A DNA stretch of 42,091 bases from a virus. A program made the position numbers and the translations under genes. Below the pieces are notes generated by a model, which worked only from the letters and a program-made list of their open reading frames with translations, did not search any database and was not told the origin of the DNA. The stretch spans positions 1 through 42,091 of the IMG/VR virus record IMGVR_UViG_3300012039_000007; one strand, given 5' to 3'. Shown here in pieces: positions 621 to 42,091 of the stretch (its first letter is position 1; every line of letters begins with the position of its first letter).

Positions 621-1370
621 ATGAAAACACTACAGAAGTTGCTCACAGTTGCAGGCTTCATTCTGGCATTCGCTCTTGCGGGCAATGCTCAAACTGCGTT
701 GGTGCAAACAACGCTTTCCGCAGCCATCAACTCTTCGCAGACGAATATTGTACTAGCGTCTGTGACTGGCTTGGCTCGCAACACCTACGGCATCTACATT
801 GATCGAGAATTCATGACTATCACTGCCGTAAACACTACCTCTAGGGTTGTTTCAGTCGTTCGTGGCGCTAACGGCACTCGTGGCACTTCACACGCCGCGA
901 GCACCATGGTGCTATACGGCGTAACTGGCGCTAGCTCTGGAGGCTTTCAGAATTACGACCCTTACGGCTCGTGCGTTACTGCACAGCAGCAATACACGCC
1001 ATGGGTGAACGTTCTGAATGGAAACCAATGGCTGTGCTCTACGGTTACACTGACTTGGGTTCCTGGTTGGGGTAACTATGACGCCGAGCAAGCGGTTACT
1101 ACGCTGGTTGCTTCGGCAGCTGGTGCAATTCTGCCTAGCGGACCACTGTTCCACGTAAATGGTACGCAGGCAGTAACGGGCTTTACGGTACCTGTTGGTT
1201 GCAACGCTACAGTCAGAGGTGGGTGCAGCTTCACTATTATTCCAGATGCTGCTTTCACTTGGACTACTGCTGGCAATATTGCAGACTCAGGTACAGCTGT
1301 GGCTAACCAAATTATTAAATTCATTTGGGATGCTACAAACAGCAAGTTTGTACAGTTGCAAAGCGAGTAA
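621..1370 (+). CDS. Signal-peptide-bearing head/decoration-type protein
   Basis: A 249-residue protein starting 6 bp after the coat stop. Residues 1-23 form a clear Sec signal peptide: MK start, hydrophobic core (AGFILAFALAG), then a site reading GNA/QT. The next 70 residues follow a beta-rich pattern (TTLSAAI...TNIVLASVTGLA...VVRGANGTRGTSHA) that recurs in phage proteins encoded just after the coat gene. The rest is Thr/Val/Gly-rich beta with several Cys (CVTAQ, LCST, GCNATVRGGCSF) that could form disulfides in the periplasm. Position suggests a virion accessory or decoration protein. The signal peptide argues instead for export. The function is not established. Confidence 0.75.
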   Translation: MKTLQKLLTVAGFILAFALAGNAQTALVQTTLSAAINSSQTNIVLASVTGLARNTYGIYIDREFMTITAVNTTSRVVSVVRGANGTRGTSHAASTMVLYGVTGASSGGFQNYDPYGSCVTAQQQYTPWVNVLNGNQWLCSTVTLTWVPGWGNYDAEQAVTTLVASAAGAILPSGPLFHVNGTQAVTGFTVPVGCNATVRGGCSFTIIPDAAFTWTTAGNIADSGTAVANQIIKFIWDATNSKFVQLQSE

Positions 1371-3435: not shown

Positions 3436-5226
3436 ATGCCACGCTTTGGTTTTGTTGGTCCTTCTTACGCATCGCAATCATCTATACAGAATGCCGAGGA
3501 GTGCTATAACTTTTACGTTGAGAATTCAGAAGTTGCAGGAAGTGAGTCACCCCGCGTGCATTATCCAACTCCTGGACTTGATGACTTTGCAACTGGTTCC
3601 GATCTTCCCTCAAGAGGTACGTGCACAACAGACGGAAGAACGTTTCACGTATCTGGCGCAAAGTTCTTTGAGATTCTTTCTGATGGTTCGATTACTAATG
3701 TTCAAGATGTTAGCAACGATGGCCTGCCGGCATGGCTCGTGTTCAGTTCAAATGGCGAAGTATTGGTAAACAGCGGAAAGCGCTGCTACGTGTTTCAGCT
3801 TGCAACCAATACATGGGTGCCACTTATACCGGCAACGTTTTTACAGCCTAACGTTGTGCAGGTTGCACATTGCGACGGGTATTTCTTCGCTCTATTTGAA
3901 AATAGCAACCAGATTCAAGCGTCCAATTTGCTTGATGCAACGACTTGGAATCCATTATCGTTTACTAACGTTACTGTGGTTCCAGGTAATACGGTTGCAA
4001 TCTTCGTAGATCACAGAGAGCTGTGGATTCATGGCATGACGAAGAGCGCCGTATACGTTAATAGCGGAGTTGGCGGAGGCTCGCTTGGCTTTCCGTTCGT
4101 TCCTCTTGCCGGGGCAACAATTGAGACTGGCATTGCAGCTCGCGCTTCTGAGGTGCAACTTGACAATACTATTTTTTGGCTTGGCTCCGACGAAAGAGGC
4201 AACGGGATTGGATGGAAAGCAAACGGCTATACTCCTGCTCGCGTTACTAATCATGCTGTTGAGTTCGATATCCAAAATAAAGTAATGAGTGATGCAATAG
4301 CTTTTAGCTATCAAGATCAAGGCCATTCGTTTTGGCAAATTTCATTTCCAACGCAAAACAAGACTTGGGTATACGATGTTTCGGTTGGTTTGTGGCACAG
4401 AAGGGCGTTTTGGAATATAGCAAGCGGCGTATTTGACGAGCACTTGGCGCGTACGCATACTTTCAATTTTGGAAGGCATCTGGTAGGGAGCAGGTCTTCT
4501 AACAAGATTTATGATATGTCAATAGAGCATCTCGACGATGCTGGCTCACTAATTCGCAGGTTGCGGCGCGCGCCAGATGTTTCGGCAGAAGGAAAGTACA
4601 TCTATCACAGTGAGTTGCAAGTGTATTTAGAATCAGGTCTTGGTCCGCAGCCGCCACTTACTGGACCAAACTTTTGCGATGCACCAGTAGGAGTGCAATC
4701 TTTTGTCCTCCAAGATCCAGACGGAGTTAATTGGACAATAACTGTAGACGATTCAGGGGTATTGCATTCGGCTGTCGGCGGAACGAATGTTGCTACAATC
4801 ATACTCAAAGACAACGATCCCATTCCAACAACTGCATGGCTTGTTGGCATTGACATTTCTGGACAATTAACGACTACAGCGGTGCCGTTTTTTTCAAGCT
4901 ATCCGCAAGCCGTGTTTATGGCAACCACTGGTGGCAATTTTCCAATGAATTTGACTGTGAATGTTGCTGGATTACTTCAAACGACTGTTCCAGTTCATTA
5001 CAGAGACCCCCAGATCGTGCTTCGTTGGTCCGATGATGGCGCAAAGACTTGGAGTAATGAGTATACGCGCAACTGCGGCAGGGCAGGTCAATACAAGAAG
5101 CGCGTGCGTTGGGGTGTTGTCGGCGGCTTAGGCCGGGCGCGCAACAGGGTGTATGAGGTGTTCATGACTGATCCCATACCGTGGCGTCTTGTGGACGCGT
5201 TCTTAAAAGCTAAGGGGGCACAGTGA
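3436..5226 (+). CDS. Tail hub / packaged-DNA stabilisation protein, P22 gp10-like
   Basis: A 596-residue protein of the Phage_stabilise (gp10) family, which forms the hexameric tail hub that closes the portal channel. The N-terminus (FVGPSY...NAEECYNFYVE, then a TPGL motif near residue 48) and the beta-propeller-like repeats up to about 390 fit the family. The C-terminal 70 residues (IVLRWSDDGAKTWS, RNCGRAGQY, RVRWGVVGGLGRARNRVYE) are especially diagnostic. The stop overlaps the next start by 4 bp, as GTGA. A roughly 120-residue segment near 400-520 looks like an insertion and could be an extra surface domain. Confidence 0.88.
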   Translation: MPRFGFVGPSYASQSSIQNAEECYNFYVENSEVAGSESPRVHYPTPGLDDFATGSDLPSRGTCTTDGRTFHVSGAKFFEILSDGSITNVQDVSNDGLPAWLVFSSNGEVLVNSGKRCYVFQLATNTWVPLIPATFLQPNVVQVAHCDGYFFALFENSNQIQASNLLDATTWNPLSFTNVTVVPGNTVAIFVDHRELWIHGMTKSAVYVNSGVGGGSLGFPFVPLAGATIETGIAARASEVQLDNTIFWLGSDERGNGIGWKANGYTPARVTNHAVEFDIQNKVMSDAIAFSYQDQGHSFWQISFPTQNKTWVYDVSVGLWHRRAFWNIASGVFDEHLARTHTFNFGRHLVGSRSSNKIYDMSIEHLDDAGSLIRRLRRAPDVSAEGKYIYHSELQVYLESGLGPQPPLTGPNFCDAPVGVQSFVLQDPDGVNWTITVDDSGVLHSAVGGTNVATIILKDNDPIPTTAWLVGIDISGQLTTTAVPFFSSYPQAVFMATTGGNFPMNLTVNVAGLLQTTVPVHYRDPQIVLRWSDDGAKTWSNEYTRNCGRAGQYKKRVRWGVVGGLGRARNRVYEVFMTDPIPWRLVDAFLKAKGAQ

Positions 5227-7700
5227 GAAGGTATTTTACAATTGTCTTGTGTTTGCTACTTTTAGTTGGCGCTTGCGATGCGCAGGTTGTACGTACGTTC
5301 ATCTCTACTACGACTGTCGCCAACCTACCTCCCGCTGCTACGAATATAGATATTTTATTCTATGTCATAGATGGAAATGACGAAGAGGACTGCACTGTAG
5401 GCGGCGGCGCGTTCACCGTACTATGCAGGTCCACTGGTTCCGTATGGGATAACGTAGGCTCTGGCGGCGGTGGTGGTGGCGGCTTCAACGGTGGGACTGT
5501 TACAGGCAACACTTATTTTACAAGCGGCATTCCATCGTTCGATGTTCTCTGTGTTAATAGCGCCGTACCTGATACGCAAGCTTTCAGGGATGCTCTCAAT
5601 GCTTCAACGGTAACTGATATAGGTGTGCGTCGAGGACCGATTCGCATATGGGGTGACGATGGCTGTCAGTTTAACGGAGCGGCAATTACTGAGTTAGCCA
5701 ACGTAGCTTATGAGACGTTTTCTTGGACTACTGTAGAGCAGTACACAGACGTAAATTTTACCAGCAGTCTCACGATTTCAGGGAATCACAAGCCCATGCT
5801 GTGGATAGGTAAGCATGGAGCAGATGCCGATACTAGCTTTATGCGAGGCCCGGCAGCAAATATTTCAAAGAGTGTTGGCAATTTCCCGATATTCGATTTC
5901 TTTGGAACGAAGAATCAAACCCTTTCCGGCTTAACTCTTCGAGGCTCTGGTACTGAACCTACCGTTTTGTACCGCAGCAACAATGCAACTGATGTTCAAG
6001 ATACTCAGATGATTATCAGTAATTCTGCCATTATTGCAGAAACTGACGGAACTCCAGCGATCAAGATTATTGGTACGCCGCCTCCGCCACAAAGCACTAC
6101 TAATTTTGATTTCACTTTTTCAGCTAATACATATTCGTCGTTTAATTCAACTACGCCATCAATCGTCATAGTAGACAGTGGGAACATTGCCATAGTTGGA
6201 CCGCAAACAGTATTTCTGAACGGTGGGGTTACCATAGAGAATATTCATGCCCCGCGCTCTGGAAACCTGTACATAAGCGACGCATACACTGAAGCATTTA
6301 GCGGTCCCCTGGTTGAATCTACAGGATCAGTCAACGGGATATTTTTAACTAACATTGAGTTTGCCGATTCTATCGGGGCAAGTTATCTCATAAAGAATAA
6401 CGGTGGTGGCGCTGGACTTGGAGGGGTGTATATCAGTGGCAATATTGCAGGTGACGCTACTGGAGTTTACGATCCAACTAGCGCCCAAATAGCGACATTG
6501 CCGTTTAGTAGAATTGGCCAGCTGGAAATGTCATCTCTTGCGTTGCCTTCATTTCTTACTTACCCAGTTAGCTCCGTTGGGGCAAATTTAATTGGCCTAC
6601 ATCAAGATGTACGACGTTCGTTTGGGCCAAGAATTGTTCGCCATGTAAATCTAGCTAGCTATACTCCAACAACAAATTCTGGAAGTGGAACTATCACTTC
6701 TACTGGAATACCAGATCCTACTGGTGGCACTGCTGCGCACAGGGTCGTGGCTACTGCCGGAACATACGATGTTAAGTTTTATAGGGATACGGTAACTCCG
6801 GCTGTTGGTGATGCTTGGATTTACGGAGTGTGGGCTAGGGCGAATACGTCCACTGGGTATTTCAATACAACTGGTCCTGTTTCTTTGGGTACTTCTGGCA
6901 GCGTTACGGTTAAAAGTATGACTGCAAATGATATGGGACAGTTTGGTACATATCAGGATTGGAAGTATTTTCTAAATATCATTAGGGTGACTGCCACGGT
7001 GGGGGATATAGAAGTAATCGCTACCGGATCAACTACAACATCAACGGAAACGGATTTCTATGCACCTGTTTTAGTTAGGGTCACGGCTGCGCAGGGGCTG
7101 AGTGACGCTGAAATATTATCCTATGCAATGTCACTTGCCCCTTACTCTCCAACTTGCAGCGTAGGCGATCTATGCAACGTAAATGGTGCAGTTATTTCTT
7201 CAGTTTCAGATACTGCGTACGGACCTTCATGGAACGGCGTCACGACAATCGCGCCTAGCAAAAATGCCGTTTACGATCAATTTGTAGCTACCCTTGCTGG
7301 ACCTGTAGCAACGGCTACGGCCTTAGCAGCAGACCCTGCCGACTGTAGCGCTGGACAAGCAACGCGTGGCATTAATGCTTCTGGCGTAGCGCAGAATTGC
7401 ACGAACATCGTTATAGCGGTTGCGAATGGAACAATTGCCCTGGCTACTGCTTCTATTCCGGCAAACGATTGCGCCACCGTGCAAACAGCTGCGGCCACTG
7501 GTGCGCTTTCAAGCGATACGATGGACTATATACCAAATGCCAGTATCAAAGGCGTGACTGGTTATACGCCAGCAGGTACTTTAACAGTAACTGGATACAT
7601 TACTGCCGATACTGTGAATTTTGATGTGTGCAATAAAGATCAGTCAAACCCAGTAACCCCTGGCGCAGTAACGCTTCGTTGGGCGGTGCATAGACCGTGA
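5223..7700 (+). CDS. Exported tail-fibre/spike protein with C-terminal TPGAVT module
   Basis: An 825-residue protein with a GTG start coupled to the gp10-like gene. Residues 1-21 are a Sec signal peptide (hydrophobic CLLLLVGACDA, then Q). Next come a phage fibre-type segment with DCTVGGG, a Gly hinge (SGGGGGGGF near 80), a long beta-solenoid-like body, and a beta-sandwich-like region near 480-640. The last roughly 100 residues share an architecture (a Cys, a VCN motif, then TPGAVT) with the genes at 14439 and 35759. The position after the tail hub is where needles, fibres or spikes are encoded, so a receptor-binding role is inferred. A cleavable signal peptide on such a protein is anomalous. 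Confidence 0.7.
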   Translation: MRRYFTIVLCLLLLVGACDAQVVRTFISTTTVANLPPAATNIDILFYVIDGNDEEDCTVGGGAFTVLCRSTGSVWDNVGSGGGGGGGFNGGTVTGNTYFTSGIPSFDVLCVNSAVPDTQAFRDALNASTVTDIGVRRGPIRIWGDDGCQFNGAAITELANVAYETFSWTTVEQYTDVNFTSSLTISGNHKPMLWIGKHGADADTSFMRGPAANISKSVGNFPIFDFFGTKNQTLSGLTLRGSGTEPTVLYRSNNATDVQDTQMIISNSAIIAETDGTPAIKIIGTPPPPQSTTNFDFTFSANTYSSFNSTTPSIVIVDSGNIAIVGPQTVFLNGGVTIENIHAPRSGNLYISDAYTEAFSGPLVESTGSVNGIFLTNIEFADSIGASYLIKNNGGGAGLGGVYISGNIAGDATGVYDPTSAQIATLPFSRIGQLEMSSLALPSFLTYPVSSVGANLIGLHQDVRRSFGPRIVRHVNLASYTPTTNSGSGTITSTGIPDPTGGTAAHRVVATAGTYDVKFYRDTVTPAVGDAWIYGVWARANTSTGYFNTTGPVSLGTSGSVTVKSMTANDMGQFGTYQDWKYFLNIIRVTATVGDIEVIATGSTTTSTETDFYAPVLVRVTAAQGLSDAEILSYAMSLAPYSPTCSVGDLCNVNGAVISSVSDTAYGPSWNGVTTIAPSKNAVYDQFVATLAGPVATATALAADPADCSAGQATRGINASGVAQNCTNIVIAVANGTIALATASIPANDCATVQTAAATGALSSDTMDYIPNASIKGVTGYTPAGTLTVTGYITADTVNFDVCNKDQSNPVTPGAVTLRWAVHRP

Positions 7701-9628
7701 TTAGGCTTCTCTTAATAGCTCTTCTGATTCCTTCACTCGCCCTTGGGCAAGTAGGCATTTCTATTCCCGGCCCATCGAATTACAACACCCCAACCGTGCC
7801 CACTGATCAGTACTGGACTGGCACTCTTGCGAATGAGCGCGCTACCGATTGGACTTTGGCAGGCGTCGAAGGCGGCATACCATCAAGTGGGTGGATGCAG
7901 TGCGGAGGAACAATTGCCGCATATACCGGCTCTGGCGGCACAATACAGTCAGCAATAGACGCTTGCGGCGACAATGAGTATGTATTGTTAGGCGCTGGAA
8001 CGTTCACGCTTTCCAGTGGCTTCTCTCTCGATCACAACATGGCAGTGCGCGGGAGTGGAAGTAACTCCACCATTCTGGTTATCAATGGCGAGACGATCAA
8101 CGACACTTGCGGATACTTCTATACAGCCGCGATTGGTTTCTGTACAAGCTCTAGTCCTGTACCTGAAACAACAGCGAATTGGACAGCTGGCTACGCTTTG
8201 GGAACGACGCGTATAACCCTGAGTGCTTCTAGTGGCGTTGTGGCTGGAACAATACTGAGGCTTAATCAGCTCAATGAAGCAAGCGATGGATATCCGGCAG
8301 CAGGCGATATTTACATTTGCACTACAGCATCTACCTCGTGCGTTGCGCAAGGTGGTGGTTATGGCTTTGGAGTAGCGGGTCGCGCAACCTCGCAGCTCGT
8401 TAAGGTTACTAATGTAGTTGGTGGGAACGTATTCGACATTACGCCACCTATCTCTATACCAGATTTCAGATCAGGACAGACGCCGCAAGCAGTATGGGCA
8501 TCAAGCGCAGCCAATATCCTTACAAATGCCGGAATAGAGGATATGTCGCTTACTTTTACCGGACTTTCTGGGTCGGATGCGGCAGGCCTTGAAATAACAA
8601 ACACTCTAAATTGTTGGGTGCGCGGCGTTAGAACTGTGTACTCCAGTTCGAATAGGCACTACACCTCAATCATTATCAACTCTCTGTTCTTTACGTTTCA
8701 AGACAGCTACCTATACGATCCATCTACCATCTTGATTGCGTCGTATCCAATTTCTCCAAATAACTCTGGCAGTTTGCTAATTCAGAACAATATATTCCAG
8801 ACTGTGACCATACCAATTGTGGTTAATGGTCCCATGCAGAACAGCGTTATTGCCTACAACTTCGCAGTAGGCAGCTCAGGGCCGATGGTCGCCATGCATG
8901 GTGGTGGCGACATGAAGAACCTGCTTGAAGGAAACGTAGCCACAAGCTTCTGGACTGATGCGAACCATGGAACGCACGCTCTCAATACAACGTTTCGCAA
9001 CGCGTTCATAGGCACGCGCTACGGCCCTGCGTGCCCTTCGGTTTGCACGCCTTTACAGATCCAGTCGTTTGGCAGGCTGTTCAACCACGTTGGAAACGTG
9101 ATGGGCGATGCTTCAGTTTACAGCGTGTATCAGAGCCTTCTAACTTGGGCCGGGAATGTAATTTACATTCTTGGTTGGCAGGGCAATGCTAGCGGCCAGA
9201 TACCACCAACCGATGCGTATGTTGCTTCTGGTTTGCTGCGTTGGGGTAACTGGGATCAGGTTACTTCTACTGACGACAATACAGACGGCGATCAGACTGG
9301 AACGCGTTGGTGTGGAGATTCAGGTAACACGAACTGGGCAAAGTGCACTGCTGGAACTGAAGTTCCTAGCACATTGACAAGCTATGCAAACGAGATACCG
9401 GCAAACGAAAGCTTTGCAGATTCATTCTATCTTTCTGCAAAGCCAGCATGGGTAGATGCAATGAAGCCCTGGCCGTTGATTGGCCCTGATGTTTCTGGCG
9501 GCCTGGTGGCCGATCTTGGTGGGCATCTCGTTACTACGCCAGCGATGGACTGTTATTTAGACGTAATGAGTGGACCTTCTGACGGCAGCGGCTCTGTATT
9601 AGCTTACGATTGGACGATGTGCTACTAA
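7697..9628 (+). CDS. Exported right-handed beta-helix tailspike / pectate-lyase-like protein
   Basis: A 643-residue protein with a GTG start overlapping the previous stop. Residues 1-17 form a signal peptide ending LALG/QVG. Residues 70-120 (GGTIQSAIDACGDNEYVLL) carry the N-terminal cap motif of pectate-lyase-like beta-helices. From 250 to 470 there are repeated Asn-ladder turns (LLIQNNIFQ, NSVIAYNFA, LLEGNVA, FNHVGNVMG). The tail (FYLSAKPAWVD, WPLIGPDVSGG) resembles secreted beta-helix proteins of Acidobacteriota, from memory of the family. A polysaccharide-depolymerising or receptor-binding spike is likely. Catalytic residues could not be assigned. Several Cys pairs suit periplasmic folding. 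Confidence 0.72.
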   Translation: MIRLLLIALLIPSLALGQVGISIPGPSNYNTPTVPTDQYWTGTLANERATDWTLAGVEGGIPSSGWMQCGGTIAAYTGSGGTIQSAIDACGDNEYVLLGAGTFTLSSGFSLDHNMAVRGSGSNSTILVINGETINDTCGYFYTAAIGFCTSSSPVPETTANWTAGYALGTTRITLSASSGVVAGTILRLNQLNEASDGYPAAGDIYICTTASTSCVAQGGGYGFGVAGRATSQLVKVTNVVGGNVFDITPPISIPDFRSGQTPQAVWASSAANILTNAGIEDMSLTFTGLSGSDAAGLEITNTLNCWVRGVRTVYSSSNRHYTSIIINSLFFTFQDSYLYDPSTILIASYPISPNNSGSLLIQNNIFQTVTIPIVVNGPMQNSVIAYNFAVGSSGPMVAMHGGGDMKNLLEGNVATSFWTDANHGTHALNTTFRNAFIGTRYGPACPSVCTPLQIQSFGRLFNHVGNVMGDASVYSVYQSLLTWAGNVIYILGWQGNASGQIPPTDAYVASGLLRWGNWDQVTSTDDNTDGDQTGTRWCGDSGNTNWAKCTAGTEVPSTLTSYANEIPANESFADSFYLSAKPAWVDAMKPWPLIGPDVSGGLVADLGGHLVTTPAMDCYLDVMSGPSDGSGSVLAYDWTMCY

Positions 9629-9634
9629 AACTAA

Positions 9635-9877
9635 ATGCCAGATAAATTCCAAGCTCCTTCGGTGCGCACGCCAGTACTAGACGAGAGAGGTTTACTTTCT
9701 GCGTATTGGCAGCGCTGGATACTGGACTTAACGGCTAGGGTTGACATTGCGCCAGTTCCGGCACCAGTTACGGCGAGTGATCCTGGTTTCCCAGGGCAGT
9801 ACTCGTATGATGCAGGATTCTTTTATGTGTGCGTTGCCAAGGATACTTGGATGAGAGCTGCGTTGGTGGCGTTTTGA
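9635..9877 (+). CDS. Small tail-associated phage protein
   Basis: An 80-residue protein. The N-terminus carries an LLSAYWQRWILDL helix and the C-terminus a GFPGQYSYDAGFFYVCVAKDTW motif. That end motif is common in small phage proteins and in fibre C-termini, where it forms a compact beta element. It sits between the spike and the acetyltransferase, and its stop overlaps the next start as TTTTGA. Function unknown, probably virion-related. Confidence 0.65.
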   Translation: MPDKFQAPSVRTPVLDERGLLSAYWQRWILDLTARVDIAPVPAPVTASDPGFPGQYSYDAGFFYVCVAKDTWMRAALVAF

Positions 9878-10299
9878 TCAGAGACGCAAAGCGAAACGAG
9901 ATTGATTGCATCGTTGAAATGGGTAAGAAGTTCTTGTCCTTTTCAACTTATAGCAAGTTCTTGGGTGAGTCACAAGAAACAATGCGCATACTAGCACAGC
10001 AACTCCTGTGGAATGAAAGCTTGCTGGTTTCAGAGCGCGAAGGGAAAGTGATCGGAATACTTGGCTACATTGTTCATAAGCATTTCATCTCTGGTGAACT
10101 TACCGCAGGTGAAGTTTTTTGGTGGGTAGAGCCAGAGTTTCGCGGAGAAGGAGTAAAGCTTATGCGCGAGATGGAGCGGCGCGCAAAGCTGGCAGGCGCT
10201 AAGCATATTCAGATGATTGCACCTAACGACAAGGTTGCTAACTTCTACGTTCGCGATGGGTTTGAGTTTGTGGAAGCAACGTATCAGAGGGCGCTATGA
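9874..10299 (+). CDS. GNAT-family N-acetyltransferase
   Basis: About 141 residues from a TTG at 9874 that overlaps the preceding TGA. This coupled start fits the domain better than the upstream ATG at 9829, which would add 15 unrelated residues. The GNAT core is visible: an N-terminal IRDA strand, beta4 (EVFWWVEPEFRGEG, with a partly degenerate acetyl-CoA loop), an alpha3 helix (LMREMERRAKLAG), beta5 (HIQMI), and the closing NFYVRDGFEFVEATYQR that is very typical. It should transfer an acetyl group from acetyl-CoA to an amine. The target is unknown. It is coupled by ATGA to the oxygenase-like gene. Confidence 0.85.
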   Translation: MIRDAKRNEIDCIVEMGKKFLSFSTYSKFLGESQETMRILAQQLLWNESLLVSEREGKVIGILGYIVHKHFISGELTAGEVFWWVEPEFRGEGVKLMREMERRAKLAGAKHIQMIAPNDKVANFYVRDGFEFVEATYQRAL

Positions 10300-10901
10300 G
10301 AGAAGTTCTAGAAGTTGACTGCTTCGCACCAGACGCTGAGCTAGTGCGCCACACTGTGGTTAATGGCGGCTTTGAAACGAAGCAAGGGCCAGATGGCGCA
10401 ATGTACACAGGTATTTCTGAGCATCCCGTAACGCACTGGCCGTTAATTATTGAGAAGTGGCTAGGCAAGAAGATCGTGCCGCGCCTTTCGTGTTTTCGGC
10501 TAAACTTAGCCGGAGAGTTACCGCACAGTTGGGTGCATTCTGACTTGATCTGTGCGCAGTACGCCAGCGTTTTGTACTTGAACACGCCGCAGCAGTGTTA
10601 TGAGCATCCAAGTGGTACGGCGTTCTGGAAGCATAACCAGTTGAAAGTGGACAGGCTTGCTACAAAAGAAGAGTTAGAGTCTGCTGGCATTAACTGGCAA
10701 GAGTATTACTCTCGCATTGAGAAAGATTGGAAAATACTTGAGCTATGGGAGCGCGTATCGTTCGTGCCGATGGAGTGGAATAAGTTTGTAACTTACCCAA
10801 CAGCTCTATTCCATAGCCGCTTTCCGTTTGATGCGTTTGGCAGCAGCCCTAAAGATGGAAGGTTGATCTGGATTTGCTTTTATGACTTGGAGGTTGAATG
10901 A
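10296..10901 (+). CDS. 2-oxoglutarate/Fe(II) oxygenase-like protein
   Basis: A 201-residue protein coupled by ATGA to the GNAT gene. The double-stranded beta-helix metal triad is readable: H81-x-D83 in HSWVHSD, a distal H173 in YPTALFHSRFPF, and an Arg at 189 that could bind 2-oxoglutarate. The layout resembles DUF6445/prolyl-hydroxylase-like proteins. The reaction would be Fe(II)-dependent hydroxylation of an unknown substrate. Candidates are a virion protein, given its place among late genes, or DNA bases, given the modification-type glycosyltransferase elsewhere in the genome. Both are inferences. Confidence 0.65.
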   Translation: MREVLEVDCFAPDAELVRHTVVNGGFETKQGPDGAMYTGISEHPVTHWPLIIEKWLGKKIVPRLSCFRLNLAGELPHSWVHSDLICAQYASVLYLNTPQQCYEHPSGTAFWKHNQLKVDRLATKEELESAGINWQEYYSRIEKDWKILELWERVSFVPMEWNKFVTYPTALFHSRFPFDAFGSSPKDGRLIWICFYDLEVE

Positions 10902-13149: not shown

Positions 13150-14357
13150 GTAATGGCGCACAAATAGATTTTGATGCGCTCGCAAGAAAGCATGGCGGCG
13201 CAATAGACTTTGACTCGCTAGCTGTTAAGCATGGCGGCACATCTGGAAGTATTGAAGATGATACGCTGGCCCTTGTTTCGCCTGGAGGAAAGAGAGCACC
13301 AGGCGTCGAGATGAAAGAAGAGCTAGCGCCTAAGCTCGTACGTTCTGGAACAGAGACACTTCCCGCGGTTGGCGGCGTTGCTGGTGGCATTGCAGCCAGC
13401 CCCACTGTGGCTGGCGCAGCGCTAGGCGCTGGATTGGGTACAGGGTTAGGTGTGGAAGCGAAGCAGCTGCTTAATAAAGCATTGTTTGGCGATGGAGAGC
13501 AAGAACCCCTTTCTGGAAAAGGTCTGCGAGAGCTTGCCGTAGGCATGGCAACTTCTGCTGCTACTGCTGGTGCACTACAAGGCACTACAAACTACTTATT
13601 GAACAAGGGAGCACAGCAAGCGGCGAACCAGGATTGGAAAGCGCTCAACGAAGCTGTAGGGGCAACGCAGAAGAGTGTGCGGATTGGCAGAAATGCAAAA
13701 GACATTACACAGGTTAGTTCAATGCCTGGCAGAGGGTTAGCAAACGTTGGCTTTAGCGTCGAGTCACTGAATAAACTCAACCCCGTAGAGCGCATGGCGG
13801 CTATTTCTCCGCATTGGCGATCGGCTGGCAAAGCAATTGATCTAGCTGTAGATGAAGCGACTACTGCCGGTAAAGTTCTCGATTCAGGAAAGTCAGTGTA
13901 CGGCGTTATTAAGTCAATTGAAAACCCAAAGCTTCAAGAGAAAGCTCTTGAGGAGTTTAGCTACTTGCAGCGCGAGTTGGGCATTGCGAATTTGCGCAAT
14001 TCAACGCCAACAGAAACACTAGCACTGCGCCGTGCTCTTAAGGCTGGTTCGCGCTTCGGTCCTAACGGCGATCTTAATTCTTTAGGTGGAATACGGGCGA
14101 GGCTGTACGGCGCTGTTTCTGACGATCTGCACAGTGCTACACCGAAGCTAAAAGAACTTGATCAGCACTATTCCGATATGGAGTCTGCAATGGCGGCAGC
14201 TCAGCGAACGGCGGGAAGGGAAATGCTTAAACCACAAAAGCCAATAGAAACTGAACCATCAAGATTTAAGAAGTTTGCCAAGAAAGTTTTGCCGTACTTG
14301 CTGCCTGGTGCTGCGGCTGGTGCTTACGCGAAGTGGGGTAAAAATATTATTGAATAG
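13146..14357 (+). CDS. DNA ejection-type protein 3 with IDFD/KHGG repeats
   Basis: A 403-residue protein with a GTG start overlapping the preceding TGA. The N-terminus has two tandem copies of a 13-residue element (IDFDALARKHGG, then IDFDSLAVKHGG; nt about 13164-13238). Such repeats also occur in large ejection proteins of other podophages. A Gly/Ala-rich hydrophobic stretch (about 75-105, 120-140) and a second near the C-terminus (YLLPGAAAGAYAKW) could insert in membranes. The middle is helical. By position it is probably the third protein of the ejection set. No enzymatic motif was recognised. Confidence 0.62.
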   Translation: MSNGAQIDFDALARKHGGAIDFDSLAVKHGGTSGSIEDDTLALVSPGGKRAPGVEMKEELAPKLVRSGTETLPAVGGVAGGIAASPTVAGAALGAGLGTGLGVEAKQLLNKALFGDGEQEPLSGKGLRELAVGMATSAATAGALQGTTNYLLNKGAQQAANQDWKALNEAVGATQKSVRIGRNAKDITQVSSMPGRGLANVGFSVESLNKLNPVERMAAISPHWRSAGKAIDLAVDEATTAGKVLDSGKSVYGVIKSIENPKLQEKALEEFSYLQRELGIANLRNSTPTETLALRRALKAGSRFGPNGDLNSLGGIRARLYGAVSDDLHSATPKLKELDQHYSDMESAMAAAQRTAGREMLKPQKPIETEPSRFKKFAKKVLPYLLPGAAAGAYAKWGKNIIE

Positions 14358-14438
14358 CCATCGAATAGAGTAATAAAGAGCAACGCCAAGTGTCCATTGA
14401 ACAGCGATAGCAAGCAGCAAGTCGTTCAGGGAGCTAAA

Positions 14439-15674
14439 ATGCAGAATGTTCCACAGAAGAGTGAACACAAAGAAAAACGCCTTAGCAGCAGTTGGGTGCA
14501 TTGCGTAATAGTAGCACTTTTAGCAGCCCTAGGCACGTGTGCATATGCGCAAACGCCCGTCCAACTCGCACCTGTGGCTAAGCAGCAATTCTTTGACGCG
14601 AATGGCACGCCTCTAGCTGGCGGCAAAATATACACGTACGCAACTGGCACGACTACGCCGCAAGCAACTTACACAAGCTCAGCTGGCGTTGCGCAGAACA
14701 CAAACCCAGTCATTCTAAATGCTGGTGGCTATACGCCTAGCGCATTGTTTCTTAGCGCTTCGTGCTACAGGTTTGTTGTTCAGAATTCAGCAGGCGTAAC
14801 ACAGTGGACAGTTGATGGGATATGCGTAGGAGTGTTTGCTGCTGGCGATAATACGTTCACTGGCGACAATACATTCACTGGAACTAATACTTTTGATGGA
14901 CCCATAATCACAACAGCTGGCGGCACGCTTGGCGGGACGTTCGCTGGCAATCCAACTTTCAGCGGCGATCCGACATTTTCAGGAAACCCAACTTTTAGCG
15001 GAACTCTGGTAGCGCCACAGTTTGAGTCTAACGTAGCCACAGGCACGCCACCGTTTATTGTGGCAAGCACTACCGTAGTCCCAAACCTAAACGTTGGCCT
15101 TATCAATGGCGTTGCTTATCCTATAAGCCCTTCGTTGCACTCTGTTCCGGTAGTTACTGCCGCGAACACGGTTTCTTATAAGGTCGTTCCCGACTGCCCG
15201 GTACTTGCATTCGACGATGGCACGGATGCTTTCTCGTGCAGCACTACGCTTGACAGTTTGACGTTAACGAATGCAACAATCACTGGTTCAACTCTAGACT
15301 CTAGCGTCATTGGCGGATCATCCGCCGACGCCGCTACTTTCACCACTGCTACAGTTAATACCTCTCTTGTCGTTGGTGGTGGTACTGCAACAACTGCGAT
15401 ACTCACAGGTTCGGCGAGCGTAAACCCTGGCACTATTTCAGATGAGACTTGCGATGACGATCTAGATATAACAGTTACTGGCGCTGATACAAATGACCGT
15501 GTCTTTGCCAGCATTGCAGCTGCAAACGCAACTTCACCAGCTGAGATGCTTCAGATTACATGGTCTGCTTACATCTCGGCCGCCGACACAGTTACGGTAA
15601 GGCTGTGCAACAACGGTGGAAGCAGTGCTACGCCTGGGGCTGTAACCGCTTACGCTGTGGTATTCAAATACTAA
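14439..15674 (+). CDS. Exported tail-fibre protein with fibre repeats and TPGAVT module
   Basis: About 411 residues. The ATG at 14439 has a GGGAG ribosome-binding site and is preferred to a TTG at 14397. After a basic stretch, residues 20-39 form a signal peptide ending CAYA/QT. The mature part begins with the fibre head of many podophages (KQQFFDANGTPLAGGK, IYTYATGTTTPQATY). Next are tandem NTFTG/PTFSG beta repeats (nt about 14850-15008), then NATITGSTLD-type fibre repeats. The C-terminal 90 residues contain a Cys, VRLCNN and TPGAVT and match the module in the genes at 5223 and 35759. This is the clearest case of a virion-fibre architecture preceded by a Sec signal. Confidence 0.8.
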   Translation: MQNVPQKSEHKEKRLSSSWVHCVIVALLAALGTCAYAQTPVQLAPVAKQQFFDANGTPLAGGKIYTYATGTTTPQATYTSSAGVAQNTNPVILNAGGYTPSALFLSASCYRFVVQNSAGVTQWTVDGICVGVFAAGDNTFTGDNTFTGTNTFDGPIITTAGGTLGGTFAGNPTFSGDPTFSGNPTFSGTLVAPQFESNVATGTPPFIVASTTVVPNLNVGLINGVAYPISPSLHSVPVVTAANTVSYKVVPDCPVLAFDDGTDAFSCSTTLDSLTLTNATITGSTLDSSVIGGSSADAATFTTATVNTSLVVGGGTATTAILTGSASVNPGTISDETCDDDLDITVTGADTNDRVFASIAAANATSPAEMLQITWSAYISAADTVTVRLCNNGGSSATPGAVTAYAVVFKY

Positions 15675-15694: not shown

Positions 15695-15973
15695 TTGGAC
15701 TTTCACTGGAATGGAGAGATAACCCTAGGAAACGTCATTACTATGGCAATGATTGTCGGTGGAGCGTTGTGGGGTTGGCGCGACCATGATTGGCGTATTC
15801 GTAACCTTGAGTCGTGGAAACAATCACATCTGCATACTAAGGTACAAGAAATTCAGAACATGACCATGTTACGTGAAAATGTAACGCGTCTAATAGCGCT
15901 ACAGGAAGCTGCGGAGCGTAGACTTGTTATGCTTGAAGATCAGCAGCAGGAATGGCGACAGAGGTTACAGTGA
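15695..15973 (+). CDS. Membrane-anchored coiled-coil protein, lysis cassette
   Basis: A 92-residue protein with a TTG start behind GAGAGGA. It has one transmembrane segment (NVITMAMIVGGALWGW, about 13-28), then a WRIRNLESW motif and a roughly 50-residue charged helix. This layout (N-terminal anchor, long coiled coil) fits an inner-membrane spanin-like protein or holin accessory. It precedes the transglycosylase with a GTGA overlap, which supports a lysis role. No outer-membrane spanin partner was identified. Confidence 0.65.
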   Translation: MDFHWNGEITLGNVITMAMIVGGALWGWRDHDWRIRNLESWKQSHLHTKVQEIQNMTMLRENVTRLIALQEAAERRLVMLEDQQQEWRQRLQ

Positions 15974-16395
15974 CTAAAGACGAACTTATAGCAATGGCAA
16001 AGGCTTGCGCCACACAACACCTGCTCGATCCCGTTCTTGTGTGTTCTGTCGTTGAGCAAGAATCGGCGTGGGACACGTGGGCAGTTCGCTACGAGCCTGC
16101 ATTTCAGACTCGATACATAGATCCATTGAATCTTTCTGCTACAGAGACAATGTGCCGCTCTACCAGTTGGGGCTTGATGCAGGTTATGGGACAGACAGCA
16201 TACGAAGCAGGGTTTAGAGCTAAAGCGCCTACGTTACTTTCGCCGGCACTTGGCTTGTACTGGGGTTGCACAGTGCTAGCTAAGAAACTTCGCAAGGCTC
16301 AGAACGATGTTGAGAAAGCTCTTCTTCTTTGGAATGGCGGCGCGAACAAACTTTATCCAGCTGAGGTACTGGCTAGAATGGACACGTACAAATGA
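15970..16395 (+). CDS. Endolysin: soluble lytic transglycosylase
   Basis: 141 residues from the GTG at 15970, which overlaps the upstream TGA. An ATG at 15952 has its AGGA too close to serve as ribosome-binding site. The SLT/goose-lysozyme-like fold is readable: catalytic Glu in VVEQESAWD (E31), GLMQV near 68-72, and an LLWNGG motif near 119-124. It should cleave the MurNAc-GlcNAc bond of peptidoglycan with 1,6-anhydro formation. There is no signal peptide, so it needs a holin. Three small membrane proteins follow. Confidence 0.88.
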   Translation: MTKDELIAMAKACATQHLLDPVLVCSVVEQESAWDTWAVRYEPAFQTRYIDPLNLSATETMCRSTSWGLMQVMGQTAYEAGFRAKAPTLLSPALGLYWGCTVLAKKLRKAQNDVEKALLLWNGGANKLYPAEVLARMDTYK

Positions 16396-35055: not shown

Positions 35056-35469
35056 ATGAATAAAATTCTAGTAAGCATTGGATTTCTTTTAGTGTTTGGG
35101 GTTTCAGCGCAAGCGCAGACGCGCAGCGTAACGATTCAGTTTGCAAACAGTCCTACAGCTGGCGTTTCTGGTTACAACGCATATAGAGTGCTGTGCTCTG
35201 CGGTAACGGGAACAACTTGCACACAGTCTGGTACACCAGCAAAGATCAACACAGCTCTTATCTTTTCGCCATTCACAGACAATTCAGTAGTGGCTGGTCA
35301 GAAGTATGAGTATTACATTACGGCGCAGTGCCCCTCTGTGGGATGTAGCCCTGGAATTTCAGGAGAAAGCGTTCCATCTTCAAAGGCGATTGCGAATATT
35401 CCGCCGTTAGCTAACCAGCTACCGGGAGCGCCGCCGAACATTACGATTACAATAGTGAGTACACCATGA
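35056..35469 (+). CDS. Exported fibronectin-III-like protein
   Basis: 137 residues from the ATG at 35056, directly after the terminase stop. A signal peptide (residues 1-21) ends VSAQA/QT. The mature part has an FN3-like order of strands (RSVTIQFANSP...VSGYNAYRVLC, YEYYITAQCP) with four Cys. Single FN3 domains are carbohydrate- or protein-contact modules on phage virions and bacterial surfaces. First of six exported proteins between the terminase and portal genes. Confidence 0.7.
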   Translation: MNKILVSIGFLLVFGVSAQAQTRSVTIQFANSPTAGVSGYNAYRVLCSAVTGTTCTQSGTPAKINTALIFSPFTDNSVVAGQKYEYYITAQCPSVGCSPGISGESVPSSKAIANIPPLANQLPGAPPNITITIVSTP

Positions 35470-35762
35470 GAAAAGTACTTATAGTTTCACTGGCTGCGTT
35501 GCTTTATGCAGCGTATGCCCTGGCCGCTACAGATGGTGCACCTGTGTATATACCAAATGAAATTCAGATGCTGCGCTTGCAGCTTGCGCAATCGAAGGCG
35601 CACACAGCGCAGCAAGCGGCGAACATGGCGCAGCAGGTGTTGAGCTTCAGGCTTGCTGAGCTTGAAGGCGAGGCGGTCAAGGTGAAGCTAGAAAACAAGT
35701 GGCCTGAAACGGTGCAATTCGACAGGGATAACTTAGGGTTTAGAGAGAAGGTGATTCAGTGA
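35466..35762 (+). CDS. Exported coiled-coil protein
   Basis: 98 residues, ATGA-coupled. Signal peptide (VLIVSLAALLYAAYALA/ATDG). The mature part is a single helix rich in Gln/Ala (MLRLQLAQSKAHTAQQAA, MAQQVLSFRLAELEGEAVK), likely a periplasmic coiled coil. It may be a spacer or assembly helper for the neighbours. Function unknown. Confidence 0.65.
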   Translation: MRKVLIVSLAALLYAAYALAATDGAPVYIPNEIQMLRLQLAQSKAHTAQQAANMAQQVLSFRLAELEGEAVKVKLENKWPETVQFDRDNLGFREKVIQ

Positions 35763-36238
35763 AACGTTTTCTACTCACTCTTGCGTTGCTACTCTCCGTA
35801 CCTGTAATCGTGTGGACGCAGAACGGCGCGTACACGACAACGCCAAGCAGCTTCGGCACGCCTGGAACCGTAACGAGCATTGCGACTACTTCACCAATAA
35901 CTGGCGGCACGATTACTACGACTGGCACGATTGCCTGCGCTACTTGCACCATAACTATAGCAAGCGGCGACATTGCGTTGGCAACTGCCGAGATTGCATC
36001 AGGTGCATGTACTTCTGCGCAGACTGACACGGCTACAGGCACGGCAACGACTGATGTGATCATCTACACGCCTGCTGCTGATCCTACTGGGATAGATGCT
36101 TACGAGGTTAGCGCCACTGGCTCTGTGTATATATGGGCATATCCAACATCTAACACAGCCAACTTCAAGGTGTGCAATAACACTGCTGGTGCGCTGACGC
36201 CTGGCGCATTAACGATTAATTGGAAGGTTGTGCGATGA
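35759..36238 (+). CDS. Exported fibre-tip-like protein with TPGAVT module
   Basis: 159 residues, GTG start in a GTGA overlap. Signal peptide (LLTLALLLSVPVIVWT/Q). It then has a tail-fibre-type linker (GTVTSIATTSPITGG, TTTGTIAC), followed by a roughly 95-residue C-terminal module with a Cys, VCNN and LTPGALTINW. That module matches the ends of the fibres at 5223 and 14439. It looks like a free-standing copy of a fibre tip. Confidence 0.7.
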   Translation: MKRFLLTLALLLSVPVIVWTQNGAYTTTPSSFGTPGTVTSIATTSPITGGTITTTGTIACATCTITIASGDIALATAEIASGACTSAQTDTATGTATTDVIIYTPAADPTGIDAYEVSATGSVYIWAYPTSNTANFKVCNNTAGALTPGALTINWKVVR

Positions 36239-36894
36239 AGTTATTGCGCCTAATTGCGTTACTCTTTTTTGTTTGCGGAACTTCGTTCGCGCAAATGCCC
36301 ATGGGTGGCGTGACTGCGAATGCTGCCAGCGGTCCGGTCATGGTTACAGATGACTTTGACCGTGGGGATGCAGACCCAGTGGATGGCAATTGGTCATTAG
36401 TTACTGGTTCAGGGTCACTTGAGATCGTATCAATGGAGGTGTTGCCAACTACCATTAATACCAGTTCAGTTATGGTCAATACAGGCGCAACTTTTCCCGA
36501 CGATCAGTACGCACAGATTACTTCAACATCACCCTCCCTTGCTGGATTCAACTACGCAGGTGTTGTGCTGCGGTACGCAACTGGTGCTAGTACTGGGTAC
36601 CGTGTATTTTGTGGCGCAGCTGGAAGTAGCGATGAGCAGTGCTACATAAGCTTGATGGTTGCTGGTATGAATACAACGCTGGACTCTGTGGCGGGGGCAC
36701 TAGCCGTTGGCGACACACTGCGCGCCGAGATTACAGGCACCACAATAACAGCATACAAGAATGGTATGGCAATAGCCGGGTTGACTGCCACAGATGCAAC
36801 GGTAGCCTCTGGTAGGCCTGGGATGGTCTTATTTGCCTTAATTACTGCGGCAGAGGCATCCCTGGATGACTTTGAAGCTGGCTCGCTTCCATGA
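36235..36894 (+). CDS. Exported concanavalin/LamG-like lectin
   Basis: 219 residues from the ATG at 36235 (ATGA). Signal peptide ends GTSFA/Q. The mature domain (DDFDRGDADPVDGNWSL, VVLRYATG, VGDTLRAEITGTTITAYKNG) is the jelly-roll type found in phage and bacterial carbohydrate-binding proteins (LamG/DUF1080-like). It may bind host or matrix glycans. One Cys pair is present. Confidence 0.72.
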   Translation: MKLLRLIALLFFVCGTSFAQMPMGGVTANAASGPVMVTDDFDRGDADPVDGNWSLVTGSGSLEIVSMEVLPTTINTSSVMVNTGATFPDDQYAQITSTSPSLAGFNYAGVVLRYATGASTGYRVFCGAAGSSDEQCYISLMVAGMNTTLDSVAGALAVGDTLRAEITGTTITAYKNGMAIAGLTATDATVASGRPGMVLFALITAAEASLDDFEAGSLP

Positions 36895-36909
36895 GATACG
36901 TAAAAGGAA

Positions 36910-37044
36910 ATGACTCACTGGCGCTCATGGCTACTCTTGCACAGTACATTTCGAGACCAGTACCACATAATGCGTTTCTTGGAATTTCAGAAAAGAGGCG
37001 CGGCAATGGCAGCCAGAAGCGCGCGCATCAAGTTGACAGAATAG
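36910..37044 (+). CDS. Possible small basic protein in the linker
   Basis: 44 residues (MTHWRSWLLLHSTFRDQYHI, then a basic end) in the 165-bp stretch between the lectin and the next exported gene. In another frame the stretch is open from the ATGA at 36891 into the next gene. Which frame is used is unclear, and the AAGGA is too close to this ATG. Confidence 0.25.
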   Translation: MTHWRSWLLLHSTFRDQYHIMRFLEFQKRGAAMAARSARIKLTE

Positions 37045-37058
37045 CGGAGGCGAATAGG

Positions 37059-37511
37059 ATGCTTAAAAAAGCAAGTATGGCGTTGTTAGTTGTAGCGCTG
37101 GCTTCTAGTGTTGCGCTAGCAGGCGTGTACGCTGATGGTCGCGCTAATCCACTTTCCCCTTCGCAGACAGTAAAGGTTTGGACAGCTGAGTCGCCCACAC
37201 CTGGCACTGGCGCTGCGGCAGCCTCCTCAGCTGTGCTATTAGCGCCCGGTCAGAATCCTCAAGGTGTAACGCCGTTTCACGCTGTTGGTTATTTCAGTGG
37301 CGCACCTGGAACGTTTGAGATTGACGTACAAGGTGCAGATGAGGACGTAAGCGCACGTTATCAGACTTTTAATGGCTGCGCAATAAGCACAGTGGACGCA
37401 ACTAATTTCACGTTTCGCTGTGATGCCGTATCAGTCAGCTCTAAGTATGTACGGTTACTGTTGCGAGCGCGCGGCAATGCGGTAAGCGTTACAGCGTGGA
37501 TTGGCCGATGA
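37059..37511 (+). CDS. Exported beta-rich protein
   Basis: 150 residues from the ATG at 37059, which has a GGAGG site 9 bp upstream and begins a proper signal peptide (MALLVVALASSVALA/G). A start at 36891 would place 56 residues before the signal. The mature part is beta-rich (KVWTAESP, FEIDVQGADEDVS, YVRLLLRARGN) with one Cys pair. No family recognised. It is coupled by ATGA to the barrel gene. Confidence 0.6.
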   Translation: MLKKASMALLVVALASSVALAGVYADGRANPLSPSQTVKVWTAESPTPGTGAAAASSAVLLAPGQNPQGVTPFHAVGYFSGAPGTFEIDVQGADEDVSARYQTFNGCAISTVDATNFTFRCDAVSVSSKYVRLLLRARGNAVSVTAWIGR

Positions 37512-38158
37512 TCAGGTTATTCATTGCACTAGTGGTTCTGCTTTGCACTATTGCGCCATTGCAGGCGCAAACAAAGCTTGCGGTTGATCTAGCTGGTGGT
37601 ACTTGCATGGGATATGAACTGCCTTGCATTGAAACAACTGCGCGCGTTGAGCATTTCATTCGTCAATTCGAAGTACAGGGTTACGGAACGTATACACCAA
37701 CAGATAAGTTGGGCGGTAACAGTTCGAATACTTACATTGCTGGCGCTACTGGCATTGCATGGACTAAATATTTAGGTTTGACGGTAAATGGCCGGCACAC
37801 TTGGCTCAAGTCTGATCAATTCAACAAAAGAGATGCCCGCTTCTCTGTTGGCGCAGTGAAAGCGTTCCGCTGGCTTGATAGCAGCCAGAGACTTTATGCG
37901 GCGTTTGTCATTCCCACTGGTGGATACAACTCCAAAACTGGCATTGAGTCTAATCGTTTGATGGGGCCTGAGTTTAGATGGGAAGCAAATCTGTGGCGAA
38001 ACATTGATTTGCATTTGAAGTTCAAGGTGCTACGAGTTTTGCATCAGGGAAATCCAAGCTGCGATGGCTCGTTAGGTGGTGCAGTAACTTGCCAAAGAAA
38101 GAGCACATGGGAAGGCAGCTCGACTACTGGCATTACATTTACTTGGGGTGTGCGATGA
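37508..38158 (+). CDS. Putative outer-membrane beta-barrel protein
   Basis: 216 residues from the ATG at 37508. Signal peptide ends PLQA/QT. The mature part alternates polar and hydrophobic residues in about eight strands (VQGYGTYTPT, GIAWTKYLGLTVNGRHTW, FSVGAVKAFRWL, RLYAAFVIPTGGY, FRWEANLWRNIDLHLKF, STTGITFTWGV), as in small outer-membrane barrels. The end lacks the usual terminal Phe (WGVR). Phage-encoded outer-membrane proteins can replace or mask receptors. A periplasmic role is the alternative. Confidence 0.6.
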   Translation: MIRLFIALVVLLCTIAPLQAQTKLAVDLAGGTCMGYELPCIETTARVEHFIRQFEVQGYGTYTPTDKLGGNSSNTYIAGATGIAWTKYLGLTVNGRHTWLKSDQFNKRDARFSVGAVKAFRWLDSSQRLYAAFVIPTGGYNSKTGIESNRLMGPEFRWEANLWRNIDLHLKFKVLRVLHQGNPSCDGSLGGAVTCQRKSTWEGSSTTGITFTWGVR

Positions 38159-41349: not shown

Positions 41350-42091
41350 GTGCCAAACCAATTTTTATTTAGCGATTGGGTATCAATGGAGGCTTTGCGC
41401 TTGCTGCTTAACAAGCTGCAAGTTGCGCAGTTCTTCAACCACAGTTGGGAGAACGATTACAACCAGGAATTCCCTGTAGGTGAAACGATCACGGTGAAGC
41501 TGCCGCAACGCTTCACTATTAGAGATGGGCTGCAATACACACCGCAGAACATCAACCGCATTTCAACGACAATCACAGCGAACAATGTTCTTGGCGTTGA
41601 CTTTCAGTGGGACTCGGTCGAGAAAGCTCTAAAGATGGAGCGTTCGCGCGCTGAGATCAGTAAGCAGTATCTTGAACCTGCAATGGCTCAGATTGCTCAA
41701 GAGATTGACTCTCGTGCAGCTCTGTTCGCCACTCAGAACACGAACAACATTGTTGGACAGTTGGGAATTGATCCTACAACTCCTCAAATTTTCAACGAGG
41801 CACGTGAAAGACTGATTACGCTTTCATGTCCTCCGTCCGACGAAAAGGGAATGATCATTCCTCCGAGATTCAACACGACTCTCGTTCCGGCAATGTCGGC
41901 CCTGTTCAATCCTGCTTCCGAGATTTCGAAGCAGTACAAAGAAGGCAGCATCGGGAAATATGCTGGAGCTGACTGGTACGAGTCCATGTCCCTGTGGCGG
42001 CACACTGCCGGCACATGGGCAGGTGCAGTAACAGTCAACCTGGCAGGTCAGTCTGGCAGCTCGCTTAACATCAATGCGACCAACGGCGATA
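41350..42091 (+). CDS. Major capsid (coat) protein, P22 gp5-like, N-terminal part
   Basis: A GTG start behind AAGGAGCTAGGCA. The first 247 codons are here and the rest is at 1-614 (410 residues in all). The opening NQFLFSDWVSMEALRLLLN, then FPVGETITVKLPQRF and GVDFQWDSVEKAL, matches the P22 coat family. It continues through helices typical of an HK97 spine (SRAEISKQYLEPAMAQIAQ). It should form the icosahedral shell together with the scaffold-like protein. Confidence 0.92.
   Translation, partial: MPNQFLFSDWVSMEALRLLLNKLQVAQFFNHSWENDYNQEFPVGETITVKLPQRFTIRDGLQYTPQNINRISTTITANNVLGVDFQWDSVEKALKMERSRAEISKQYLEPAMAQIAQEIDSRAALFATQNTNNIVGQLGIDPTTPQIFNEARERLITLSCPPSDEKGMIIPPRFNTTLVPAMSALFNPASEISKQYKEGSIGKYAGADWYESMSLWRHTAGTWAGAVTVNLAGQSGSSLNINATNGD
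41969..42091. repeat. Terminal direct repeat, right copy
   Basis: Exactly equal to 1-123. Removing one copy gives a 41,968-bp circle with an intact coat gene. Confidence 0.95.

Follow-up and report, generated by a model that had tools for sequence, protein, structure and literature searches.

Why would a podophage fibre carry an export signal ahead of the domain by which such proteins join the tail? Tailed-phage virions are thought to assemble wholly in the cytoplasm, and an earlier note on this locus held that a virion part should not be exported. That premise is an assumption, and the sequence data presented here challenge it. The gene in question lies between internal virion protein genes and lysis genes in the window (the whole stretch analysed, 42,091 nucleotides of viral DNA), with the following features.

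14428..14433, + strand: Shine-Dalgarno AGGGAG, 5 nt before the ATG at 14439 (sequence reading and scoring)
14439..15674, + strand: signal-bearing P22-type tailspike/fibre gene, 411 aa, translated with no internal stop; a full-length homologue (L092/L274, 42% identity) has its own signal
14439..14549, + strand: predicted signal peptide, residues 1-37, cleavage AYA/Q (shuffle test; A/Q kept in 12 of 13 signal-bearing clusters)
14559..14831, + strand: P22-type head-binding domain, about residues 41-131 (PHROG 26190, E 1.7e-9; PDB profile search; Foldseek; VIA-align; AF2)
15366..15671, + strand: C-terminal knob with two conserved, aligned Cys, common to the proteins at 5223 and 35759 (alignment and an HMM built from these same three proteins, 5223, 14439 and 35759)
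15952..16395, + strand: SLT-domain endolysin without a signal peptide, two genes after the fibre (Pfam PF01464, E 2.4e-9)

The N-terminus of the fibre reads MQNVPQKSEHKEKRLSSSWVHCVIVALLAALGTCAYA/QTPVQLAPVAKQQFFDANGTPLAGGK, where the slash marks the predicted cleavage. A basic stretch, KEKR, is followed by a hydrophobic core, VIVALLAALG, and then by AYA/Q, the arrangement that the earlier note had described ahead of the head. It was borne out with a home-made signal-peptide scorer, used for all signal-peptide calls in this work: none of 20,000 shuffles of the 36 residues after Met reached the observed score, and 113 of 20,000 shuffles of the N-terminus passed the loose threshold. AF2 predicted a helix at residues 18-36, in a full-length model that is otherwise poor (pLDDT 52), and the predicted cleavage falls 3 residues before the start of homology to spikes that lack a signal. 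The N-terminus has the basic n-region, hydrophobic core and A-x-A of a Sec/signal peptidase I substrate, and these are kept across relatives. A Tat signal was rejected, as the n-region, KSEHKEKRLSSSW, has no RR. Processing by signal peptidase II as a lipoprotein was also rejected: the lipobox [LVI][ASTVI][GAS]C is not matched, LGTC having Thr at -1, and the signal Cys is not conserved, being missing in several signal-bearing relatives. By every available sequence test, the fibre signal is real.

Fusion with the preceding gene was rejected, since that gene stops at 14357, leaving an 81-nt gap, and the fibre gene has its own Shine-Dalgarno. An internal start behind the signal was rejected as well. 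The earlier note had named a virion form beginning at an internal Met as the result that would overturn its reading; a sequence scan found no Met between the hydrophobic segment and the C-terminal part. Start scoring returned only GTG codons as alternatives near the head, all without a Shine-Dalgarno.

Directly behind the predicted signal lies a complete head domain. Profile and fold searches placed its KQQFFDANG region within a P22-tailspike-type head-binding domain. A profile built from 47 head sequences matched the head-binding domain of the cyanophage Pam1 tailspike (7eeq, E 1.9e-14) as well as the Pan3 tailspike, and the AF2 head model (pLDDT 81.6) aligned with the P22 tailspike head-binding domain 1lkt (VIA-align Z 11.9), with Pan3 (9vyg_o, VIA-align Z 13.8; 9vyg_m, Foldseek E 1.6e-7) and with WceF (6TGF, structural Z 6.0). 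In P22 this domain docks to the tail; thus, the signal precedes the docking domain. In P22-type tailspikes, the primary product begins with this domain and has no signal peptide, a description that only the predicted mature form of the window protein fits. For the remainder of the protein, where a trimeric beta-helix or glycanase body was sought, no Pfam family was matched, in the body or elsewhere in the fibre.

The earlier note had stated that the head normally lies at the very N-terminus, and this held among relatives without a signal. The head domain begins at the initiator Met in 77 such sequence clusters. In the 80 closest IMG/VR relatives, the KQQFF-like motif follows a Met, mostly one with a Shine-Dalgarno, by ~8-14 residues, and the distance is the same in the annotated phages PBR31, P26218 and DSL-LC05. 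The annotated signal-less phages with the head domain near Met are phages of Proteobacteria. Two of the signal-less loci (L171, L002) have two head-binding-domain genes each; the more complete signal-bearing records examined have one.

Scanning of IMG/VR, one genome collection and 396 Acidobacteriota genomes yielded 12 further independent loci with a signal on the spike. Three are in Acidobacteriota assemblies, one of these inside a 6.4-Mb contig with two more signal-bearing genes directly downstream, and one is on a contig binned as Betaproteobacteria. In these relatives, the cut falls a few residues ahead of the shared head domain, and the A/Q cleavage is kept in 12 of the 13 clusters, the signals being otherwise divergent. 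A check of the host +1 residue found Q in 6 of 26 chromosome signals, indicating that Q is common at this position, yet too rare to account for 12 of 13. The bodies of two of the signal-bearing relatives (L178, L088) resemble beta-helices or pectate lyases. A gene directly upstream of a signal-bearing spike (L272, complement, start 12148; L089:1034-2485) has a signal of its own, LLVA/QSD, and 10 mature Cys.

The earlier note had treated the signal as one odd gene. This view was not sustained: the window phage has about ten signal-bearing proteins, and the trait belongs to a lineage of podoviruses linked to Acidobacteriota. With its exact 123-bp direct terminal repeat (1-123 and 41969-42091), the window represents a complete, circularly mapped genome, and the coat gene is split across the record ends (41350 to 614). 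It encodes a P22-like portal, a head-closure/hub protein and an ejection protein. Besides the fibre, the genes with signal-like N-termini, several of which adjoin structural genes, are listed here with the tail hub.

621..1370, + strand: signal-bearing 249-aa protein, GNA/Q, immediately downstream of the coat gene; 4 mature Cys; PHROG 7578/1101, tail-like
3436..5226, + strand: head-closure/tail-hub protein without a signal, PHROG 578 Hc3 (PHROG E 6e-83)
5223..7700, + strand: signal-bearing 825-aa protein, CDA/Q, in the structural module; 10 mature Cys; shared C-terminal knob
7697..9628, + strand: signal-bearing 643-aa protein, ALG/Q, in the structural module; 13 Cys
35056..35469, + strand: signal-bearing 137-aa protein, AQA/Q; 4 mature Cys
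35466..35762, + strand: signal-bearing 98-aa protein; no mature Cys
35759..36238, + strand: 159-aa protein with a signal-like N-terminus (weak score, 2.57), mostly signal and shared C-terminal knob
36235..36894, + strand: signal-bearing 219-aa protein, SFA/Q; PHROG 2804, virion structural protein
37059..37511, + strand: signal-bearing 150-aa protein; 2 mature Cys
37508..38158, + strand: signal-bearing 216-aa protein, LQA/Q; 4 mature Cys; by eye, the look of a small outer-membrane barrel; no family match

With the same scorer, nine calls were obtained in the window versus 0.23 per genome on shuffled window proteins. The mature Cys number is even in 9 of the 10 signal-like genes, one of the nine having zero; the protein at 7697-9628 is the sole odd one. 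Homologues of the 621 gene in three related phages (L273, L277, L278) also appear to start with a signal; a search for this gene in annotated phages and IMG/VR gave no match.

Several other observations were made in this genome. The six signal-like small genes of 35056-38158 are consecutive and flanked by the large terminase and the portal, which is an unusual site for exported proteins. A 332-aa protein between the coat and tail genes (1437-2435) has 9 Cys and no signal, an exception among the Cys-rich proteins of the phage. Acetyltransferase-like genes adjoin tail or spike genes in the window (9829-10299) and in related records (L170:7532-7984, L279:32875-33216, L280:23103-23501); found in several Acidobacteriota phages, they are annotated in Tunturi 1 and 3 and were recognized by eye in the window and L170. 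A conserved 200-aa gene lies directly before the ejection protein (window 10296-10901; L178:35-634; similarity by eye). The window phage presumably infects soil bacteria, probably an Acidobacteriota-linked host.

Cultured phages carry the same trait. One of them, the podovirus Tunturi 1, was isolated on Tunturiibacter psychrotolerans, a soil bacterium of the Acidobacteriota (PMC11924767); the text of that paper does not mention signal peptides. Tunturi 1 and Tunturi 2, podoviruses on Acidobacteriota hosts, have five signal-bearing genes each, on spike-like genes. In Tunturi 1, these genes lie in the virion module, encode 20, 10, 20, 1 and 32 mature Cys and include one annotated tail spike and one annotated virion structural protein; most of its large spike-like genes bear signals. 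Tunturi 2 gp17 has 34 Cys, the 32 conserved with the last signal-bearing protein of Tunturi 1 plus two added. Among the virion genes checked in the Acidobacteriota phages Tunturi 3 and 4, no signal was called except for a single weak call in Tunturi 4, on a small non-spike protein. An artefact of host or composition was rejected on the basis of these signal-less virion genes and of the shuffled proteins (0.23 versus 9). Because Tunturi 1 and 2 have the trait and Tunturi 3 and 4 lack it on the structural genes checked, we conclude that it is a property of certain phage lineages and not of the host phylum or of start calling.

Since folding would take place in an oxidising compartment, an exported spike is expected to gain cysteines in pairs. 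In a comparison resting on a small number of independent signal-bearing lineages (13 clusters), with p values that are indicative only as the rows are related and not phylogenetically independent, median Cys content was 1.60% in the 13 signal-bearing clusters versus 0.52% in 72 complete signal-less clusters (p 6e-5), the mature Cys number was even in 12/13 versus 18/52 signal-less proteins with any Cys (p 2e-4), and at least 2 Cys were present in the head-binding domain in 7/13 versus 0/77 clusters (p 2e-7). No signal-bearing head (0/13) carries a single Cys. Odd numbers occur in the signal-bearing fibre of L088 and in the signal-bearing proteins 7697 (window) and 19025 (Tunturi 1). The head pairs use two sets of positions, 22 with 79 or 85, and 68 with 88 in the window protein, and 12 of the 13 signal-bearing heads lie close together on a weak tree, with at least two origins. 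In the AF2 head model, the window pair C109/C129 is at both ends of a predicted beta hairpin (strands 72-78 and 84-92; the Cys are residues 72 and 92 of the mature head); this placement, judged from strand positions, is compatible with a cross-hairpin bond.

Because the A/Q site is kept, Cys are enriched and even-numbered, and signal-bearing relatives occur in other phages, export of these spikes into an oxidising compartment is very likely real, and it is a lineage trait. For the window protein, the sequence makes it very likely that it is exported, is cleaved at the predicted site, has a Cys content of the disulfide type and adopts the P22 head-binding fold. What follows export is less certain. 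Our main reading, to which we give a probability slightly under one half (about 0.47), is that the fibre is a Sec pre-protein that matures in the periplasm and joins the virion after the holin has opened the membrane. SecYEG would move the pre-protein across the inner membrane, and signal peptidase I would cleave AYA/Q, so that only three residues remain ahead of a canonical head-binding domain. The mature chain would then trimerise and form its disulfides in the periplasm; meanwhile, capsids, filled and closed with portal and tail hub, would wait inside the cytoplasm. Opening of the inner membrane by the holin would bring the two pools together, and the spikes would plug into the tail hub as the final assembly step. 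The tail-hub protein at 3436..5226 is a candidate docking partner, and the other signal-bearing proteins may be co-exported spikes or virion appendages.

We infer docking after export because the docking fold is kept, the gene is single-copy and it has the position of a spike gene. Late docking fits the P22 pathway; Israel, Anderson and Levine reportedly found in 1967 that P22 tailspikes join heads in vitro. It also fits the endolysin of the window, which has no signal and so would need a holin to exit the cytoplasm. Against this reading, a kept head domain would by itself be no proof of docking, as WceF illustrates. More tentatively still, the lineage as a whole may build part of its virion outside the cytoplasm, with most spikes and fibres Sec-exported, disulfide-bonded and added after holin opening.

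Of the options raised in the earlier note, assembly at lysis is favoured over a free exported enzyme or adhesin, and a membrane tether is least supported, given the kept A/Q site. A free exported spike that is not a virion part, acting as a periplasmic or extracellular glycan enzyme, an adhesin or a receptor-blocking decoy, is the strongest rival, though we consider it less likely than docking. Its precedents are WceF of Pantoea stewartii, a glycanase that resembles the P22 tailspike and in which an export signal precedes this head domain (PMC7949094; Z 6.0), and PblB of streptococcal prophages, a surface adhesin with a predicted signal peptide (PMC4508584); the beta-helix/pectate-lyase-like bodies of L178 and L088 also speak for it. 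However, the fibre gene occupies the canonical spike slot, neither the window phage nor three related signal-bearing phage records have a second, signal-less head-binding-domain gene to serve the virion, and in Tunturi 1 it is most of the large spike-like genes that carry signals.

It is improbable that an uncleaved signal anchors the spike to the inner membrane, tethering it in the periplasm. The hydrophobic core is long enough, and the predicted helix spans 18-36, but the A/Q site is conserved where the rest of the signal is not, and the signal Cys, with Thr at -1 and no counterpart in several relatives, does not form a conserved lipobox. Equally slim is the chance of two products, a cytoplasmic virion form started at an internal GTG (Val46 or nearby) and an exported long form: GTG codons are indeed found close to where the head begins, both in the window and in several signal-bearing relatives, but none has a Shine-Dalgarno, Val is simply common in the motif, and, to judge from the Cys pattern, most of the protein folds under oxidising conditions. 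It is very improbable that the hydrophobic N-terminus is a chance feature or an annotation error and that nothing is exported. The calls come from a home-made scorer, but the shuffle test, the 13 independent clusters, the A/Q conservation, the Cys statistics, the nine calls against 0.23 expected and the same-phylum negative controls Tunturi 3 and 4 all oppose it.

When a fibre-like protein lacks a signal peptide, this has been taken as support for its origin in a phage (PMC6199706). This rule of thumb fails in a phage lineage whose spikes carry Sec signals, a trait that the Cys statistics support, and annotators should be warned that an exported protein labelled 'bacterial' in an Acidobacteriota genome may be the spike of a prophage. 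Signal-bearing spikes would mean either that assembly includes a step in the periplasm or that a set of spike-like proteins is secreted; the relatives that share the trait suggest that tail parts are shipped from the cell interior before particles are finished. With two such podoviruses, Tunturi 1 and 2, available in culture, the idea can be tested directly.

P22-type tailspikes and Sec-exported phage endolysins (PMC6116005) are already known; a limited open-access search, with subscription papers and preprints outside its scope, turned up no account of tailed-phage spikes, as a class, bearing signal peptides. Signal-peptide endolysins, such as Lys44 of phage fOg44, and SAR endolysins are tailed-phage proteins that use host Sec during infection (PMC6116005). 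Unlike the window fibre, they are lysis enzymes without a virion-docking domain, and the endolysin of the window itself has no signal. PblA and PblB of streptococcal prophages are tail proteins that reach the exterior of the producing cell, with a signal peptide predicted for pneumococcal PblB (PMC4508584); PblB of S. mitis is released by phage-induced permeabilisation and binds to other cells. Both belong to a Gram-positive siphophage and, in contrast to the window protein, are not P22-type spikes.

WceF (6TGF) resembles the window protein in that an export signal immediately precedes a P22-type head domain, which this exported bacterial enzyme retains without any virion (PMC7949094). Its signal is of the Tat type and its gene belongs to a bacterial exopolysaccharide cluster, whereas the window gene has a Sec-type signal and lies in a phage structural module; a WceF-like cluster context was rejected, as the fibre gene is flanked by phage internal virion and lysis genes. 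With the P22-type tailspikes themselves (P22 gp9, Sf6 gp14, Pam1, Pan3 and Xanthomonas phage PBR31), the window protein shares the head-binding fold and profile. Their genes follow those for ejection or internal proteins, as in the window, whose genome also has a P22-like portal, and PBR31 has the same gene order of internal virion proteins and then tailspike. In PBR31 and the signal-less relatives checked, however, the protein starts with the head-binding domain, whereas in the window it starts with a 37-residue predicted cleavable signal and carries paired Cys.
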